Of a DNA stretch of 64,000 nucleotides, positions 21,675 through 45,174 are shown one piece after another. Under the pieces are notes generated by a model that worked only from the letters and a program-made list of their open reading frames with translations, did no database searches and was not told where the DNA came from. The stretch comes from Clostridiales bacterium. Its GTDB lineage: Bacteria; Bacillota; Clostridia; Lachnospirales; Lachnospiraceae. The position numbers were made by a program, and so were the translations under genes. The stretch spans positions 33,822-97,821 of the forward strand of contig JAJBTU010000037.1 in NCBI GenBank assembly GCA_020860715.1, read 5' to 3'. Numbering within the stretch: position 1 is the first letter of the stretch; the number at the start of each line of letters is the position of its first letter.

Positions 21675-21689
21675 AAGTCTGTTCTGATA

Positions 21690-21847
21690 CAGAACAGCAG
21701 GCCACAGACCGCTTTCTTCGAAAGCTATATGCCGCTTACGCGTCATATGTCTGAGGCTTAATGGGTGTTCCGCCCATCCCGAAATGAAAATACAGTCTTT
21801 AGCAGGTAAACCTGCACAGCCTGTCTTTTCATTTCGCTGCTGTTCTG
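21690..21847 (+). repeat. Intergenic multibranched palindromic element, copy A1
   Basis: Outer arms CAGAACAGC...GCTGTTCTG, inner stems GCC-a-CAGAC/GTCTG-a-GGC, GCTTTC/GAAAGC, ATATG/CATAT, ATGGG/CCCAT, GAAATGAAAA/TTTTCATTTC; same element at 36966 and 43491. Confidence 0.9.
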
Positions 21848-22075
21848 AACTTTTAGAAAAAAATATAGAAAAAGACTTGATAAATCCGGAAAGAAATTAT
21901 ATTATATGAGGTAGTGTGTGCAGATATTAAATCAAAGCATATCATGCCTGCTGCTTTTTAGCTGCGCTATACATAGAAGCCCGACTGAATTTGGGGCAGG
22001 CCCGCGCATTTGCCGCGCGGAGCGTATGGAACAGTATTATTATACGATGCCGGACTGCAAGAAGGAGGAAACACG

Positions 22076-33648: not shown

Positions 33649-33669
33649 AACAAAAAAACATAAAAAATA

Positions 33670-33862
33670 TTCTTCGGGGCAGGGTGCAATTCCTGACCGG
33701 CAGTAAAGTCTGCGACCCGCGAGAGCGGCTGGAAGCGCCCCCTCACATGCGTTTGGCGGCAAGTCGCACCGCCCATGCAAAAAAACGCTTCGCGTTTGGG
33801 CGGTGCTGCTGAAACGGTGTGATTCCGTTACCGACGGTGACAGTCCGGATGATAGAAGATAT
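33670..33862 (+). ncRNA. FMN riboswitch (RFN element) with extended variable helix
   Basis: TCTTCGGGGCAGGGTGCAATTCCTGACCGGCAGTAAAGTCTGCGACCCGCGAGAGCGG...GGTGTGATTCCGTTACCGACGGTGACAGTCCGGATGATAGAAGA. Confidence 0.93.
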
Positions 33863-33870
33863 GACAGGTA

Positions 33871-36940: not shown

Positions 36941-36965
36941 CCTGTACGTGGTGGAAACCGGCATT

Positions 36966-37173
36966 CAGAACAGCAGGCCACAGACCGCTTTCTTCGAAGG
37001 CTATATGCCGCTTACGCGTCATATGTCTGAGGCTTGATGGGCGTCTACGCTACCGCTTCGGTCGGTGCTAAACGCGTGCCACTGGCACGCAGCACCCGCC
37101 CATCCCGAAATGAAAATACAGCCTTTAGCAGGTAAACCTGCACAGTCTGTTTTTTCATTTCGATGCTGTTCTG
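36966..37173 (+). repeat. Multibranched palindromic element, copy A2, with module inserted at 37043-37095
   Basis: Same arms and stems as A1; extra TCTACGCTACCGCTTCGGTCGGTGCTAAACGCGTGCCACTGGCACGCAGCAC inside the ATGGG/CCCAT hairpin. Confidence 0.9.
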
Positions 37174-37208
37174 AACTGTTAGGCAACATGCCGGAAAGGA
37201 TAAATAAA

Positions 37209-37766: not shown

Positions 37767-38207
37767 ATGTTGAGACCGAGTTTTTACAGAGAAAATTTAT
37801 GGGATGAGTTTTTTGATGATTTCTTTAATGAGCCGTTTTACCGTACAAACGCATCCAGAGGGCAGACAGACCTGATGAGAACGGATGTGAAAGAGAGCGA
37901 AAGCGAATATGAGCTGACAATGAATCTTCCGGGAATCAAGAAGGAGGATGTGAAGGCTGAACTGAAGGATGGATATCTGACGATCCAGGCATCCACGAAT
38001 ACAAATAATGATCAGAAGGACAGCAACGGTAAGTATGTTCGCCGTGAACGTTTTGCCGGGTCTTTCAGCAGATCGTTCTATGTGGGTGAGGATGTGAAGC
38101 AGGAAGACATCAAGGCAAAGTTTGAGAATGGAACCTTGATTCTTACCGTGCCGAAGAAAGTCCAGCAGCCGGTGGTTGAAGAAAACAGGTATATTGCCAT
38201 CGAGTAA
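37767..38207 (+). CDS. Hsp20/alpha-crystallin family small heat shock protein
   Basis: FFDDFFNEPF...RTDVKESESEYELTMNLPGIKKEDVKAELKDGYLTI...FENGTLILTVPKK. Confidence 0.95.
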   Translation: MLRPSFYRENLWDEFFDDFFNEPFYRTNASRGQTDLMRTDVKESESEYELTMNLPGIKKEDVKAELKDGYLTIQASTNTNNDQKDSNGKYVRRERFAGSFSRSFYVGEDVKQEDIKAKFENGTLILTVPKKVQQPVVEENRYIAIE

Positions 38208-38291
38208 TATAGCTTACAAGAATTTCGTTGCGCTTGCGGAAGCGAAATTCGTAAGCTAACGAGCAGCTGTTATTTGCTGCGAGTAATATAG
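38201..38291 (+). repeat. Hairpin element bounded by perfect 12-bp direct repeats
   Basis: CGAGTAATATAG at 38201 and 38280; internal AGCTTACaaGAATTTCG...CGAAATTCGTAAGCT hairpin. Confidence 0.75.
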
Positions 38292-38336
38292 AAAAAGCGG
38301 CGGATAGACCGCCGCAAGTAAGGTCCTTTTTCTCTG

Positions 38337-38368
38337 CGGTGCAGCCTTAAACAGCTGCACCGTTTTTT
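38337..38368 (+). terminator. Rho-independent terminator
   Basis: CGGTGCAGC-cttaaaca-GCTGCACCGTTTTTT. Confidence 0.9.
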
Positions 38369-38370
38369 GA

Positions 38371-38491
38371 TGCGCAGGGCCGGGCAAGGTATATCCCGCG
38401 CACAGCGTGGGATGCCACCCGGCGAGGGCTAAGCGCGTGCCATTGGCACGCAGCAACCGCGCGGGCGAGTAGGGGAGAATCTCCCTACTCG
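38371..38491 (+). repeat. Modular palindromic intergenic element, copy B1
   Basis: TGCGCAGGGC...ATATCCCGCGCACAGCGTGGGAT...GGCTAAGCGCGTGCCATTGGCACGCAGC...GCGAGTAGGGGAGAATCTCCCTACTCG; near copy at 40785. Confidence 0.85.
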
Positions 38492-38621
38492 ATTTAGGAC
38501 GAGAGTTGCTTGTTGTAATGTTTCTGAATTGGTATTATAATGCTTCTATAACACAGGGACTGGATCAGGAAAAAAATGGAAGAATAAAAAATCATAAACC
38601 CTTGGTTTACAGGGGATTGCA

Positions 38622-39127
38622 ATGAATGATACAGGCAGAATCGAAGAAGCTGTTTTATCGCTTTGTGAATACACGCAGAAGCCGGATCACAAAAAGCTGC
38701 AGGACGATATCGAAACTATACTGAATCGGTATGGCCAGATTGGAATGGGAAATCTGAAGACTGTGAATTTCCTTGCGGATCTGATGGACATTATGCGGGA
38801 CAATCGGATAAAAATGCCGCACAGTCTGACTATGCTTGTTCGCGGCCTGACGCACATGGAAGGCGTATTGGCCGAGCTGTCACCGGATATTAATATCGTG
38901 GAAATTGCCCGTACAAAAATTGTGGAGAGCTTTTTGAAACCGGCTAATATCTCAAAGGAATTAGAGGACTGCTGATCACGGCGCTGCTGATCAGTGCAAG
39001 CATCATCTGCACGACGAACCTGCAGCCCCGGTTTTTGGGAATGCCTGTGATTGCCGCAGTCGGTTATGGGCTGGCAATCCTGCTTGCCGTATGTTTAATC
39101 ATTCATTACTTCCACGGAAAAAAATAA
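38622..39127 (+). pseudogene. UbiB/AarF (ABC1-like kinase) C-terminal remnant, frameshifted
   Basis: IKMPHSLTMLVRGLTHMEGVLAELSPDINIVEIA followed in another frame by GLLITALLISASIICT...IIHYFHGKK* (TM tail); kinase core absent. Confidence 0.7.
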
Positions 39128-39160
39128 TTTTATAAGACGGCGATTCTTTTAAGCAGATAG

Positions 39161-39622
39161 TCACTGGATTGGGGCTTCATTTTTCTGCATATCAGCCAGC
39201 AGGTTTTTCAACTCATTCAAAAGCGTTTCTAATGTTACCTGTTCCAGGCTTTCCTTCATTGCGTCTACAGCGGAAAGCATGTGTGGATACAGGAGCTGAT
39301 AGATATTTTTGCCGACAGGACAGTCGCTGTCTGTCTCGTGAATTTTAAAAATTTCTTCGACATCATTGGTTTCCACTGACTGGTAGATGTCCCATAAGGT
39401 GATGTCCTTTGGCTCTCTGGCGAGCTGTACGCCTCCGTTTTTTCCGGGAGATGCGGTAAGCAGGCCACTTTTTGACAAATTTTGAAAAATGTTCCGGATG
39501 ATGACAGCGTTAGACCCGGTACTTTCTGCGATAAGGGTACTGGTGACGCGGCGCTTTGGGGACAGTACCGCAACGAAAAGCAGCGAATGGACTGCTGTTG
39601 GAAATCGTTTACTGACACGCAT
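39161..39622 (-). CDS. Rrf2-family transcriptional regulator
   Basis: FPTAVHSLLFVAV...VTSTLIAESTGSNAVIIRNIFQNLSKSGLLTASPGKNGGVQLAR. Confidence 0.88.
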   Translation of the reverse strand: MRVSKRFPTAVHSLLFVAVLSPKRRVTSTLIAESTGSNAVIIRNIFQNLSKSGLLTASPGKNGGVQLAREPKDITLWDIYQSVETNDVEEIFKIHETDSDCPVGKNIYQLLYPHMLSAVDAMKESLEQVTLETLLNELKNLLADMQKNEAPIQ

Positions 39623-39657
39623 GGAATTACCTTCTTCCTCAAACATAAATCTGGAGA

Positions 39658-39778
39658 GCCGCGCCCTCGCCGGGTGGCATCCCGCACTTCGTGCGGGATA
39701 TTCCATACAAAATTGCCTGCGGCAATGGTGCGGCCTGCGTCATAAGGAATCCACCGGCAAGCCGGTTCCCTTTATGAC
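39658..39778 (-). repeat. Modular palindromic intergenic element, copy B3
   Basis: GCCGCGCC-CTCGCCGGGTGGCATCCCGCACTTCGTGCGGGATATTCC (shares module with B1/B2 in inverse orientation), ATTGCC-tgc-GGCAAT, GTGCGGC, GTCATAA...TTTATGAC hairpin. Confidence 0.75.
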
Positions 39779-39925
39779 ATATTATAAAAAGAAGTATAAC
39801 AGAATTTTTCTAAAAAATCAATTGTAAGTATTGACATTACTTTAATATGACTTTATAATGTAAAAACAATAATTACATTAAATTGGATGGGAGAATTAAG
39901 GAGGTATATATAATGGAGGGGGAAA

Positions 39926-40675
39926 ATGAGAGCAGGAGATGCAGTCACACTGGAAGCAGGGAATAAGAAGATACAGATATTTTGTTCAAAACAGAAAGCA
40001 CCGTTGATCATTTATCACGCTGTGATGGGAGAAGGGAAAAGACTGTGGCAGGCCTGTCGGAATATTGACTGCTCTGAATTCTCCCTTGCGGTTATAAATG
40101 ATGTCAATTGGGATGACGAGATGACGCCGTGGCCAATTCCGCCGATTTCGAAAGGAGATACGCCATGCTCCGGCGGCGCTGACGTATATCTGAAACAGCT
40201 GACCGATGAATTGCTGCCGCAGATTGAGGCTTCCCTTTTGTTTCCTCCGGAGTACTGTGTACTTGCAGGCTATTCCCTTGCAGGGCTGTTCGCGGTCTAT
40301 GCGGCGTACAAAACAGACTGTTTTTCCCGTATTGTCTCCGCATCCGGTTCTCTGTGGTATCCGGATTTTGTACCGTTTGTCCGCCAGAATCAGATTTCCG
40401 AGCGAGTTGAGGCAATCTATTTTTCCCTTGGGGATAAAGAAAGTCATACGAAGAATCCATATCTGGCTCCTGTGGAAGAGAATACTCGATTGCTTTTTCA
40501 CTATTTTTCAGAAAAAGGAATCCGGACAACGTTTCACCTGAATAAGGGAAATCATTATCAAAATTCTACCGGAAGAACAGCATCCGGAATAAAATGGATT
40601 TTACAGCAGCAGCAACGATCAGGAAAAGCAGTAGTCTTCCCTGCGGTCGGCACTGCCGGGAATTCTGGTAGGTGA
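39926..40675 (+). CDS. alpha/beta-hydrolase superfamily esterase-like protein
   Basis: LAGYSLAGLFAVYAAYKTDCFSRIVSASGSLWYP nucleophile elbow; C-terminal GNHY. Confidence 0.75.
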   Translation: MRAGDAVTLEAGNKKIQIFCSKQKAPLIIYHAVMGEGKRLWQACRNIDCSEFSLAVINDVNWDDEMTPWPIPPISKGDTPCSGGADVYLKQLTDELLPQIEASLLFPPEYCVLAGYSLAGLFAVYAAYKTDCFSRIVSASGSLWYPDFVPFVRQNQISERVEAIYFSLGDKESHTKNPYLAPVEENTRLLFHYFSEKGIRTTFHLNKGNHYQNSTGRTASGIKWILQQQQRSGKAVVFPAVGTAGNSGR

Positions 40676-40747
40676 GATTGATGTACAACCCCTTTTTTGA
40701 AACTCTGGAAAAAGTTGAAGAAAAGCACTACGTAACGATTGAGTGAC

Positions 40748-40783
40748 AGAATTTCTCCCCGGGAGCATTCCCGGGGATTTTTA
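40748..40783 (+). terminator. Rho-independent terminator
   Basis: CTCCCCGGGA-gcat-TCCCGGGGATTTTT. Confidence 0.8.
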
Positions 40784-40784
40784 A

Positions 40785-40953
40785 TGCGCAGGGGCGCGTA
40801 TGGAAATTTTCCAGCTGGTGCTGGATGCGTCTCCGCTGCCGCTCCGGTCGTTGAATATCCCGCGCACAGCGTGGGATGTCACCCGGCGAGGGCTAAACGC
40901 GTGCCACTGGCACGCAGCAACCGCGCGGCGAGTAGGGAAAATCACCCTACTCG
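40785..40953 (+). repeat. Modular palindromic intergenic element, copy B2
   Basis: ATATCCCGCGCACAGCGTGGGATGTCACCCGGCGAGGGCTAAACGCGTGCCACTGGCACGCAGCAACCGCGCGGCGAGTAGGG...CCCTACTCG; near copy of B1. Confidence 0.85.
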
Positions 40954-40954
40954 A

Positions 40955-41575
40955 TTATAGATTAAAGCGGAAGGGATCGTTGGTTTCCGGAAGATAAGCC
41001 ATCAGACCGTGCAGCACCAGATTTTGCATTAATGTGCTGACTTCTTCGGCAGACAGATCCTTCCCTCTTTCATTCCACAGCTGCAAAATGCTGAACATTG
41101 CAGAATTTATGTAGTCTAACAGATAATCAAAATATGGCGAATCCGCCGGGAGTGGAAGATAATCTTCCACCAAGGGGAGTAATTCTGATTTTACTTTTGA
41201 GAAAAAAGCAGAGTCCCCATTCGGTCCAAGCAGGAGGTAGATTTTTTCATTCATAGCATTAAAAACAATCTGAAAAAGGTTTTTCAGGGAATCCGCCCTT
41301 TCAGAAGCCATCTGGTGTATCGCATTCCCGGAGCCGGATTCCGGCATAACCTGACGAATCGTCTGCTTCAGCTCATCTAACAGGTCTGCCTCTGCATTTG
41401 CGACCAGGTCGTCAATATCTATAAAATACTCATAAAATGTACCGCGGTTATAGGATGTACGTCTTGTAAGTTCATTGACTGCGATTTTGGAAATCGGCTT
41501 TTCCTTTACCAATGCCCAGAAGGCGTCAATGAAGATTCGGCGTGTCCTTTTGGTGGTCGCTGATTGCTTTTTCAT
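40955..41575 (-). CDS. TetR-family transcriptional regulator
   Basis: TKRTRRIFIDAFWALVKEKPISKIAVNELTRRTSYNRGTFYEYFIDIDDL. Confidence 0.9.
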   Translation of the reverse strand: MKKQSATTKRTRRIFIDAFWALVKEKPISKIAVNELTRRTSYNRGTFYEYFIDIDDLVANAEADLLDELKQTIRQVMPESGSGNAIHQMASERADSLKNLFQIVFNAMNEKIYLLLGPNGDSAFFSKVKSELLPLVEDYLPLPADSPYFDYLLDYINSAMFSILQLWNERGKDLSAEEVSTLMQNLVLHGLMAYLPETNDPFRFNL

Positions 41576-42609: not shown

Positions 42610-43517
42610 GTGCAGGTCTTATATCTGTGAGGAATCTTACGAAGGATTATGGAGATAACCGTGGTGTGTTTGACATCTCCCTTGACATCCAGGAAGGTGA
42701 GGTGTTTGGCTATCTGGGAACCAACGGATCCGGAAAGACGACCACGATCCGCCATATGATGGGCTTTTTGAAGCCGGATTCCGGCGAAGTGCTGGTGAAT
42801 GGGTTAAACCCATGGAAGCAGGCGCCGGAGGTCATGAGAGATGTCAGCTATATACCCGGGGAGATCGCGTTTCCAGATGTGGCCACCGGCACGGACTTTT
42901 TTAGGGTGCAGGCACAGTTCCTGGGCGTGAAGGATTTTACTTACATGAATCACTTGATTGATCTTCTGGGGCTGGACCCGTCCGCCAACCTGAAACGCAT
43001 GAGCAAAGGAATGAAGCAGAAGACAGCGATTGTAGCGGCACTGATGGGTGATAAGAAAATACTGATCATGGACGAACCGACCACCGGCCTGGATCCGCTG
43101 ATGCGGGAGACCTTCCTGGAACTGGTTCGTGAGGAAAAGAAAAAAGGCAGGACTATCTTTATGTCCAGCCATATTTTTGAGGAAATCGAGGATGTCTGCG
43201 ACCGGGTTGCCATCATCGGGAACGGTAAAATTAAGGATGTACTGAGTCTCTATAAGCTGCGCCACGACACGCCGAGAATGTTCCGGATCACGTTTGCTAA
43301 TGAAGCAGCTGCGCAGGAATATGCGCAGAGGATTTCCGATGCAGTCGTGGATGAGAACGAAAAGTCAAAAGTAACTTTTGCCGTTCCTGCTGCCGAAATT
43401 GACCGTATGATCAAGGCAACGAAAGAACTGCCGGTTGTTTCGGTTGATGAGAAGCATGAGGATCTGGAGGAGTATTTTATGAAAATAGTTCAGAACAGCA
43501 GCAAAAGCATAACATAG
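42606..43517 (+). CDS. ABC transporter ATP-binding protein 2 (paralogue)
   Basis: GTNGSGKTTTIRHMMG, MSKGMKQKTAIV, IMDEPTTGLDPL; ATGA overlap with ATPase 1. Confidence 0.95.
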   Translation: MSAGLISVRNLTKDYGDNRGVFDISLDIQEGEVFGYLGTNGSGKTTTIRHMMGFLKPDSGEVLVNGLNPWKQAPEVMRDVSYIPGEIAFPDVATGTDFFRVQAQFLGVKDFTYMNHLIDLLGLDPSANLKRMSKGMKQKTAIVAALMGDKKILIMDEPTTGLDPLMRETFLELVREEKKKGRTIFMSSHIFEEIEDVCDRVAIIGNGKIKDVLSLYKLRHDTPRMFRITFANEAAAQEYAQRISDAVVDENEKSKVTFAVPAAEIDRMIKATKELPVVSVDEKHEDLEEYFMKIVQNSSKSIT

Positions 43518-43700
43518 ATCATGCAGATTTATCTGCGATGGGCTATGCTATGCTTTTGGGATGGGCGGAACACCCATACAGCCTCAGACATATGACGCGT
43601 AAGCGGCATATAGCCTTCGAAGAAGGCGGCGCTGAACGTCCAGTGGACGTTCGTTTAGCGCCGACCGGAGCGGAGCGTAGACCTGTGGCCTGATGTTCTG
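43491..43700 (-). repeat. Multibranched palindromic element, copy A3 (inverse orientation), with module at 43627-43682
   Basis: CAGAACAGCA...GATGTTCTG ends; ATGGGCGGAACACCCAT, CCTCAGACATATGACGCGTAAGCGGCATAT shared with A1/A2; covarying internal stems. Confidence 0.88.
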
Positions 43701-43726
43701 AAAGAAATAGAAAAGGAGATCAGAAA

Positions 43727-45053: not shown

Positions 45054-45056
45054 ATA

Positions 45057-45137
45057 CGCACGGCCGCGAAAGGAAGTTAGTGGCTTTGCCACTCGCGGCC
45101 GCGCGGGCGGATAAGGTGAGAAGACTCTCCTTATCCG
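45057..45137 (+). repeat. Palindromic intergenic element, divergent copy B5
   Basis: CGGCCGCGa...AGTGGC-ttt-GCCACT-CGCGGCCG then GCGGGCGGATAAGGtgagaagactctCCTTATCCG, same layout as the 3' half of B1/B2. Confidence 0.6.
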
Positions 45138-45174
45138 ATAGAAATTACATGGAGAAGAATGGACAGGAGAGAAC

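Follow-up and report, generated by a model that had tools for sequence, protein, structure and literature searches.

Small palindromic repeats are common in bacteria, and we know of no account of how most of them spread. REP and BIME sequences, which go together with RAYT (Y1) transposases, are intergenic palindromes whose structure is thought to be recognised as a single strand. In Streptococcus pneumoniae, BOX, RUP and SPRITE are small composite stem-loop repeats that lie in intergenic regions and are considered parasitic (PMC3049150), and their insertion into one another has been noted (PMC3049150, PMC10969869). Mitochondrial double-hairpin elements and yeast GC clusters are palindromic, are tens of nucleotides long, and merge and shuffle at one site (PMC4478555). 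Group IIC introns insert behind a terminator hairpin and its T-run, in one orientation (PMC7161350; Robart et al. 2007 cited therein), and the substrate used in the corresponding assay was a stem-loop followed by TTTTTTA (PMC7161350).

Here we analysed a 64,000-nt stretch of DNA (the window) from a draft Lachnospiraceae genome of 2.67 Mb in 39 contigs, the closest named relatives of which are metagenome-assembled Lachnospiraceae. A previous sequence-only reading of the window had described four modular palindromes, B1, B2, B3 and B5, as one "B family" located at gene ends and promoters. Our analysis suggests that B1, B2 and B5 are probably non-coding mobile elements, here called T-elements, that sit at terminator T-runs, and that two further units, m3-m2 and m1, insert into them and into other sequences. 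We infer movement from comparisons of relatives, while the repetition, covariation, target, presence or absence and nesting order were observed directly.

Results

Composition of the B elements

Comparison of copies identified the T-element as the base layer common to B1, B2 and B5. It consists of two hairpins and measures 82-89 nt in bare copies, and its parts follow one another in the order ATGCGCA, a long hairpin that keeps an AAGGA-type bulge on its 5' side and has a variable tip, the linker CGCGC(G)GGC, a second hairpin (e.g. CGAGTAGGG...CCCTACTCG) and a terminal CGAT. The m3-m2 unit (53-54 nt) reads TCTNCGCT.CCGCTTCGGTCGG(T/C)GC, TAAAC, a 7-8 bp stem, the loop ACT, the second half of the stem, A and GC(A/G)CC, and the m1 unit (~39 nt) comprises AATATCCC, a short hairpin of variable sequence and GGGATGCCACCCGGCGAGGG. 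B5 is a bare T-element, B1 is a T-element with m1 and m2 that is missing the m3 half, and B2 is a T-element with m3-m2 in which m1 lies between m3 and m2 (Table 1). B3 is built on another palindrome and has only m1 in common with these three; m1 is present there in inverse orientation and is 85-86% complementary to B1 and B2.

All four palindromes were thus recovered with shifts of a few bases only, including the sequence common to B1 and B2, its partly inverted occurrence in B3 and the conservation of the outer layout alone in B5. The proposed "B family" holds for B1, B2 and B5 as one base element with differing inserted units, but not for B3, with which m1 alone is common. In the folding check that had been suggested, all four folded better than their dinucleotide shuffles, with z values from -3.1 to -5.4. 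They are also intergenic as described, provided that the Rrf2 gene begins at MRVSKRF, the usual Rrf2 start; a mechanical open reading frame at 39161-39706 overlaps B3 only via an earlier in-frame ATG. B2 does abut the stop codon of the TetR gene, in that the CGAT at its end contributes its final T (40955) to the TAA, and the TetR reading frame is one codon longer in the empty-site relative L123.

Table 1. Positions of T-elements, their inserted units and adjacent terminators in the window (R1, m3-m2 model; R2, T-element model).
Feature	Position	Strand	Evidence
Intrinsic terminator (CGGTGCAGC..GCTGCACCG + TTTTTT), B1 directly behind	38337-38369	+	sequence
B1: T-element (ATGCGCA...CGAT) with m1 and m2	38370-38493	+	model R2 match 38370-38493; 91% identity to B2 over 85 nt
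m1 in B1 (ATATCCC-hairpin-GGGATGCCACCCGGCGAGGG)	38391-38428	+	sequence
m2 hairpin in B1, without m3 half	38429-38457	+	partial model R1 match 38428-38454
B1 terminal hairpin (P2)	38466-38491	+	folding
B3: composite palindrome 5' of Rrf2 gene; not in homologous L131	39658-39790	-	folding, locus comparison
m1 within B3	39664-39702	-	complementarity to B1, B2
Intrinsic terminator (CCCCGGGAGCATTCCCGGGG + T-run), B2 behind	40757-40782	+	sequence
B2: T-element with m3-m2 nested in it and m1 in m3-m2	40784-40955	+	model R2, locus comparison
m3 half of the m3-m2 in B2	40830-40853	+	model R1
m1 between m3 and m2 in B2; missing at counterpart site in L188	40854-40892	+	locus comparison
m2 half of the m3-m2 in B2	40893-40921	+	model R1
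B2 terminal hairpin (P2)	40929-40953	+	folding
B5: bare T-element, T-run of terminator directly 5'	45054-45139	+	model R2, 71.1 bits
m3-m2 nested in A-family palindrome A2 (36964-37183)	37044-37096	+	model R1, 83.9 bits; empty form at window 21728-21810 and in L144
m3-m2 nested in A-family palindrome A3 (about 43486-43712)	43628-43681	-	model R1, 64.6 bits; empty forms

Other repeats and structures were noted in the window and in related genomes. Three A-family palindromes (21687-21865, 36964-37183 and 43473-43712) are ~180-220 nt long and have inverted ends, GTTCAGAACAGC...GCTGTTCTGAAC; A3 alters the end of an ABC ATPase gene, relatives are without it, and m3-m2 is nested in both A2 and A3. 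The palindrome AACGCCCCCTC...CGGCGGCAGGTCGCG...AACGCTTCGCGTT recurs in genomes of the genus (L231/L233, L141/L186, L199) and is a further host of m1. Behind the Hsp20 gene, at 38207-38300, lies a palindrome (GCTTACAAGAATTTCGTTGCGCTTGCGGAAGCGAAATTCGTAAGC) that has a relative at L140 12030-12180 and similar sequences in L141 and L143, and it is one more repeat family. Among known structured RNAs, the window contains only one of note, an FMN riboswitch (Rfam RF00050) at 33666-33864 on the + strand, which a GA-cis match on the opposite strand overlaps.

T-elements lie at the 3' foot of hairpins

Using a T-element model that contains no upstream sequence, we inspected 38 matches and set aside four low-scoring ones without the CGAT end, which are probably something else, leaving 34. 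All 30 that were not in tandem had at least 4 T in the 9 bases just before the element, and 28 of these also passed a strict upstream-stem test; the two exceptions, B5 and L251, follow a terminator with a bulge or a long loop. At random positions in the same loci, a T-run plus hairpin occurred in 1.6%. When elements were located separately, starting from their 3' end, a T-run preceded 12/12 of them (11 by the strict count). The remaining 4 of the 34 T-elements form tandems, each beginning immediately after the last hairpin of the T-element before it, so that the terminator and tandem cases follow one rule, in which the element lies at the 3' foot of a hairpin that is usually a terminator. The GC hairpin and T-run belong to the upstream host sequence, and what comes after the terminal hairpin of the element itself is CGAT and then variable sequence, a layout that does not make the element a terminator.

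The gene-end position originally described can therefore be stated more sharply, as a start at the T-run of an intrinsic terminator. Promoters, the other location named, are not a property of the class: B5 lies upstream of a gene because its terminator does.

Related loci differ by whole units

Comparison of orthologous loci revealed several states of the B2 site. In L123 and L143 no element is present, and TTTTTAGCAYAGATTAA comes after the same terminator; L188 has a T-element with m3-m2, and the window has a T-element with m3-m2 and m1, while L124 and L139 carry a T-element of different composition and L157 a deletion remnant. What a more distant relative carries at this site is absent from closer ones, so the difference may reflect either gain or precise loss of the T-element. 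L148 has no element at the site of another T-element, near 1652 in L157, and B3 is likewise absent from its homologous locus. A3, which forms an inverted-repeat palindrome in the gap between two ABC genes, is absent at all orthologous loci spanning its site, and it is clearly a gain in the lineage of the window's genome.

The nesting order of the layers is clear, and orthologous sites exist that have or lack each of them. The m3-m2 unit is found in A palindromes and once in another m3-m2 (L045), and counterparts without the unit exist; it replaces ~3 bases (GTC, GCC, TTC, ACC or ATC, always ending in C), with a single base lost at L036. By comparison, m1 is a pure insertion of ~39 nt whose flanks are ...TTG and CTAAAC or GG and CA; L231 vs L233 and L141 vs L186 are further present/absent pairs. 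No target duplication was found in the filled/empty pairs for B2, m3-m2 and m1, nor were there terminal inverted repeats, given that the ends of the T-element (ATGCGCA/CGAT) and of m3-m2 (TCTNCG/GCNCC) are not inverted copies of each other.

Stems covary while unpaired bases are kept

In an alignment of 22 m3-m2 copies of the 7-bp stem class, 98.1% of pair cells were paired and 8/14 pairs showed double-sided changes, compared with 20-48% pairing when the partner was moved by 1-3 bases. The inner helix had been used in choosing these copies, but double changes also occurred in the outer helix and in the small helix (columns 6-7 with 12-13), neither of which had been used in selection. A set chosen by anchors only, with no pairing required, contained 46 distinct stem combinations that were Watson-Crick at 510/564 positions. 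For the T-element (43 model matches), 97.0% of cells were paired and 20/27 pairs had double changes; since this alignment was fitted to the model, the slid comparison (29-52%) is the fair one. In both units, structure is conserved while stem sequence varies freely, and specific unpaired bases are kept, namely the AAGGA bulge of the T-element and the TAAAC bulge and ACT loop of m2. The earlier description of modular palindromes with covarying stems was thus borne out by both copy comparison and covariation.

The mismatches bear on the molecule in which these structures form. Among 1,063 pair cells there were 24 G-T and 20 A-C mismatches (p = 0.65), with G-T making up 2.3% of pairs. Constraint on a transcript of one strand should allow G-U but not A-C, so that equal counts favour structure in DNA. 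In the m2 inner stem, G-T exceeded A-C (9 versus 3), numbers that are too few to decide and that give a weak hint toward RNA. The tolerance of A-C is an indirect argument, and it points to hairpins that would form in folded DNA rather than RNA.

Copy number and distribution

The repeat search across the whole genome that had been proposed as a check yielded further copies, which answers the objection that the B elements might be confined to this locus. The m3-m2 covariance model found 31 copies in the window's own genome and matched 43/47 genomes of the genus, with a maximum of at least 112, the counts being capped by how many candidates were scored, while the T-element model found 12 copies in the own genome and matched 31/40 genus genomes, also with a maximum of at least 112; the relatives are draft, mostly metagenome assemblies in which repeats at contig ends may be under-counted. 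Copy numbers of the two are unlinked (35 m3-m2 and no T-element in G023; 15 m3-m2 and at least 112 T-elements in G029), and this independent variation marks them as separate families.

In a wider draw from the order, 18/146 genomes matched the m3-m2 model, comprising the own genome, 7 more of the same family and 10 from other families, 2 of which had at least 39 matches. A DNA similarity search with B2 gave no match in the other families of the order, yet the structure model still matched relatives there, so the unit reaches wider than DNA similarity suggests. The m2 pattern had no match in viral contigs, and there was thus no sign of carriage by phages.

Variant arrangements were seen in some of the more distant genomes. 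L224 (G083) and G057, from another family of the order, have at least 39 units that resemble m3-m2 but differ in the m3 half and have the outer stem GGATGC/GCATCC; many of them lie at contig ends, and they are probably a piece of a longer repeat. Another genus of the family has, at L223 1390-1670, a tandem pair of m3-m2 units beside a tRNA-like T-arm sequence (GGATTTGAACCTGCGG), and this arrangement is repeated.

Discussion

We class the elements described here as small palindromic repeats, interspersed and probably mobile, whose target is unusually exact and whose build is layered. They fall outside the MITE, REP/RAYT, group IIC intron and terminator classes because each of these assignments fails on a defining feature. 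Like MITEs (reviewed in PMC10969869), they are short, non-coding and multi-copy and show presence/absence polymorphism, but T, m3-m2 and m1 have neither terminal inverted repeats nor target duplication, although A-family palindromes do have inverted ends. They resemble BOX, RUP and SPRITE in being composite stem-loops that insert into one another and reach high copy number in a narrow group; they differ from BOX, with its tandem boxB, in targeting a terminator T-run and in unit structure, a distinction drawn from the published description rather than from sequence. Small size, palindromic form, merging and an enzyme that is not identified in either case are shared with mitochondrial double-hairpin elements and GC clusters, which differ in belonging to eukaryote organelles, in the AG or ACT direct repeats at the ends of GC clusters and in having no terminator target. 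In the open papers, we found no description of T, m3-m2 or m1 and no system that combines mutual insertion with insertion behind terminators. Neither a known terminator, an Rfam family nor a Y1 transposase family, the kinds of match that could have accounted for the B elements, explains them.

We weighed several other explanations. The strong covariation, the conserved unpaired bases and the consistent location at transcript ends would all suit host structured RNAs or regulatory leaders or trailers, which would be transcribed and would protect or attenuate mRNA ends, the modules serving as functional domains. We consider this quite unlikely, given that G-T pairs are rare and not commoner than A-C, that the Rfam 15 covariance models give no match, and that the elements are present or absent between close relatives, with copy number ranging from 0 to at least 112. 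Moreover, the T-element starts after the T-run, so a terminated transcript would end before the element. Replication slippage or template switching at the hairpins of ordinary old palindromes, with no movement to new sites, would have in its favour that template switching can correct palindromes and so yield double changes without intermediates. We find it scarcely credible for these elements: one and the same unit recurs at numerous unrelated sites, within its own copies and within palindromes of two families that are not related, several loci have empty counterparts that match exactly, and A3 is missing from every orthologous locus across its site.

Two known kinds of mover were also considered. 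REP- or PATE-like derivatives moved in trans by an IS200/IS605-type Y1 (RAYT-like) transposase acting on folded single-stranded DNA would fit hairpins that have conserved bulges and no terminal inverted repeats or target duplication, and Y1 transposases are found in several relatives. However, PF01797 has no match in the own genome (E 1e-3), and the transposase does not track copy number in the genus: G014 and G006 have many copies but only a fragment of a Y1 transposase or none, whereas G017 and G019 have the transposase and no T-element. In addition, m3-m2 replaces target bases, unlike IS200/IS605, and the architecture and target differ from those of REP sequences, making this explanation rather unlikely. 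T-elements could alternatively derive from group IIC introns as minimal relics, or travel as their passengers. They share the target of these introns (a terminator hairpin with a T-run, in 30/30 non-tandem and 12/12 separately scanned cases), and their own ends, (A/G)TGCG...AT, resemble intron ends, but at only 82-89 nt they have no ribozyme domains or reverse transcriptase. The reverse transcriptase domain (PF00078) is absent from the own genome; G016 has 11 RVT_1 matches and no T-element, while RVT_1 has no match in G006, where T-elements number at least 112. The Rfam models for group II introns give no match up to E = 1, domain V is not visible and the branch-site A would be paired, so we regard such an origin as highly improbable.

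In the explanation that we favour, mobile T-elements with m3-m2 and m1 as separately moving units, the T-element would insert 3' of a hairpin and in practice right behind the T-runs of intrinsic terminators, where it would do little harm to genes. The m3-m2 and m1 units would insert into T-elements and other palindromes, and m3-m2 also into its own copies; insertion of units into one another would produce the nested, modular look. The conserved bulges and loops in stems of free sequence suggest that a trans-acting enzyme or host factor may recognise the folded single DNA strand, and the copies may persist as near-neutral parasites. The mover could also be a host replication or repair activity. 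Among the loci inspected, none had a gene flanked by the m3 left end and the m2 right end, as would be expected of a full-length element with its enzyme. A possible, tentatively held idea is that T, m3-m2 and m1 are moved by a not previously described hairpin-targeting DNA system, neither IS200/IS605 nor a retroelement. Such a system would place hairpins, folded from single-stranded DNA, either inside other hairpins or at their 3' foot, in the case of m3-m2 with the three-base replacement, and hairpins would then accumulate inside and behind hairpins.

With three interlocking families, copy numbers that reach 100 or more per genome, exact ends, exact empty sites and a target described by one rule, the mechanism of mobility becomes testable. 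If the target is folded terminator DNA, terminators would be places where DNA elements can land safely, a role that they already have for group IIC introns, and the nested elements of these bacteria may be a counterpart to the nested hairpins of mitochondria.
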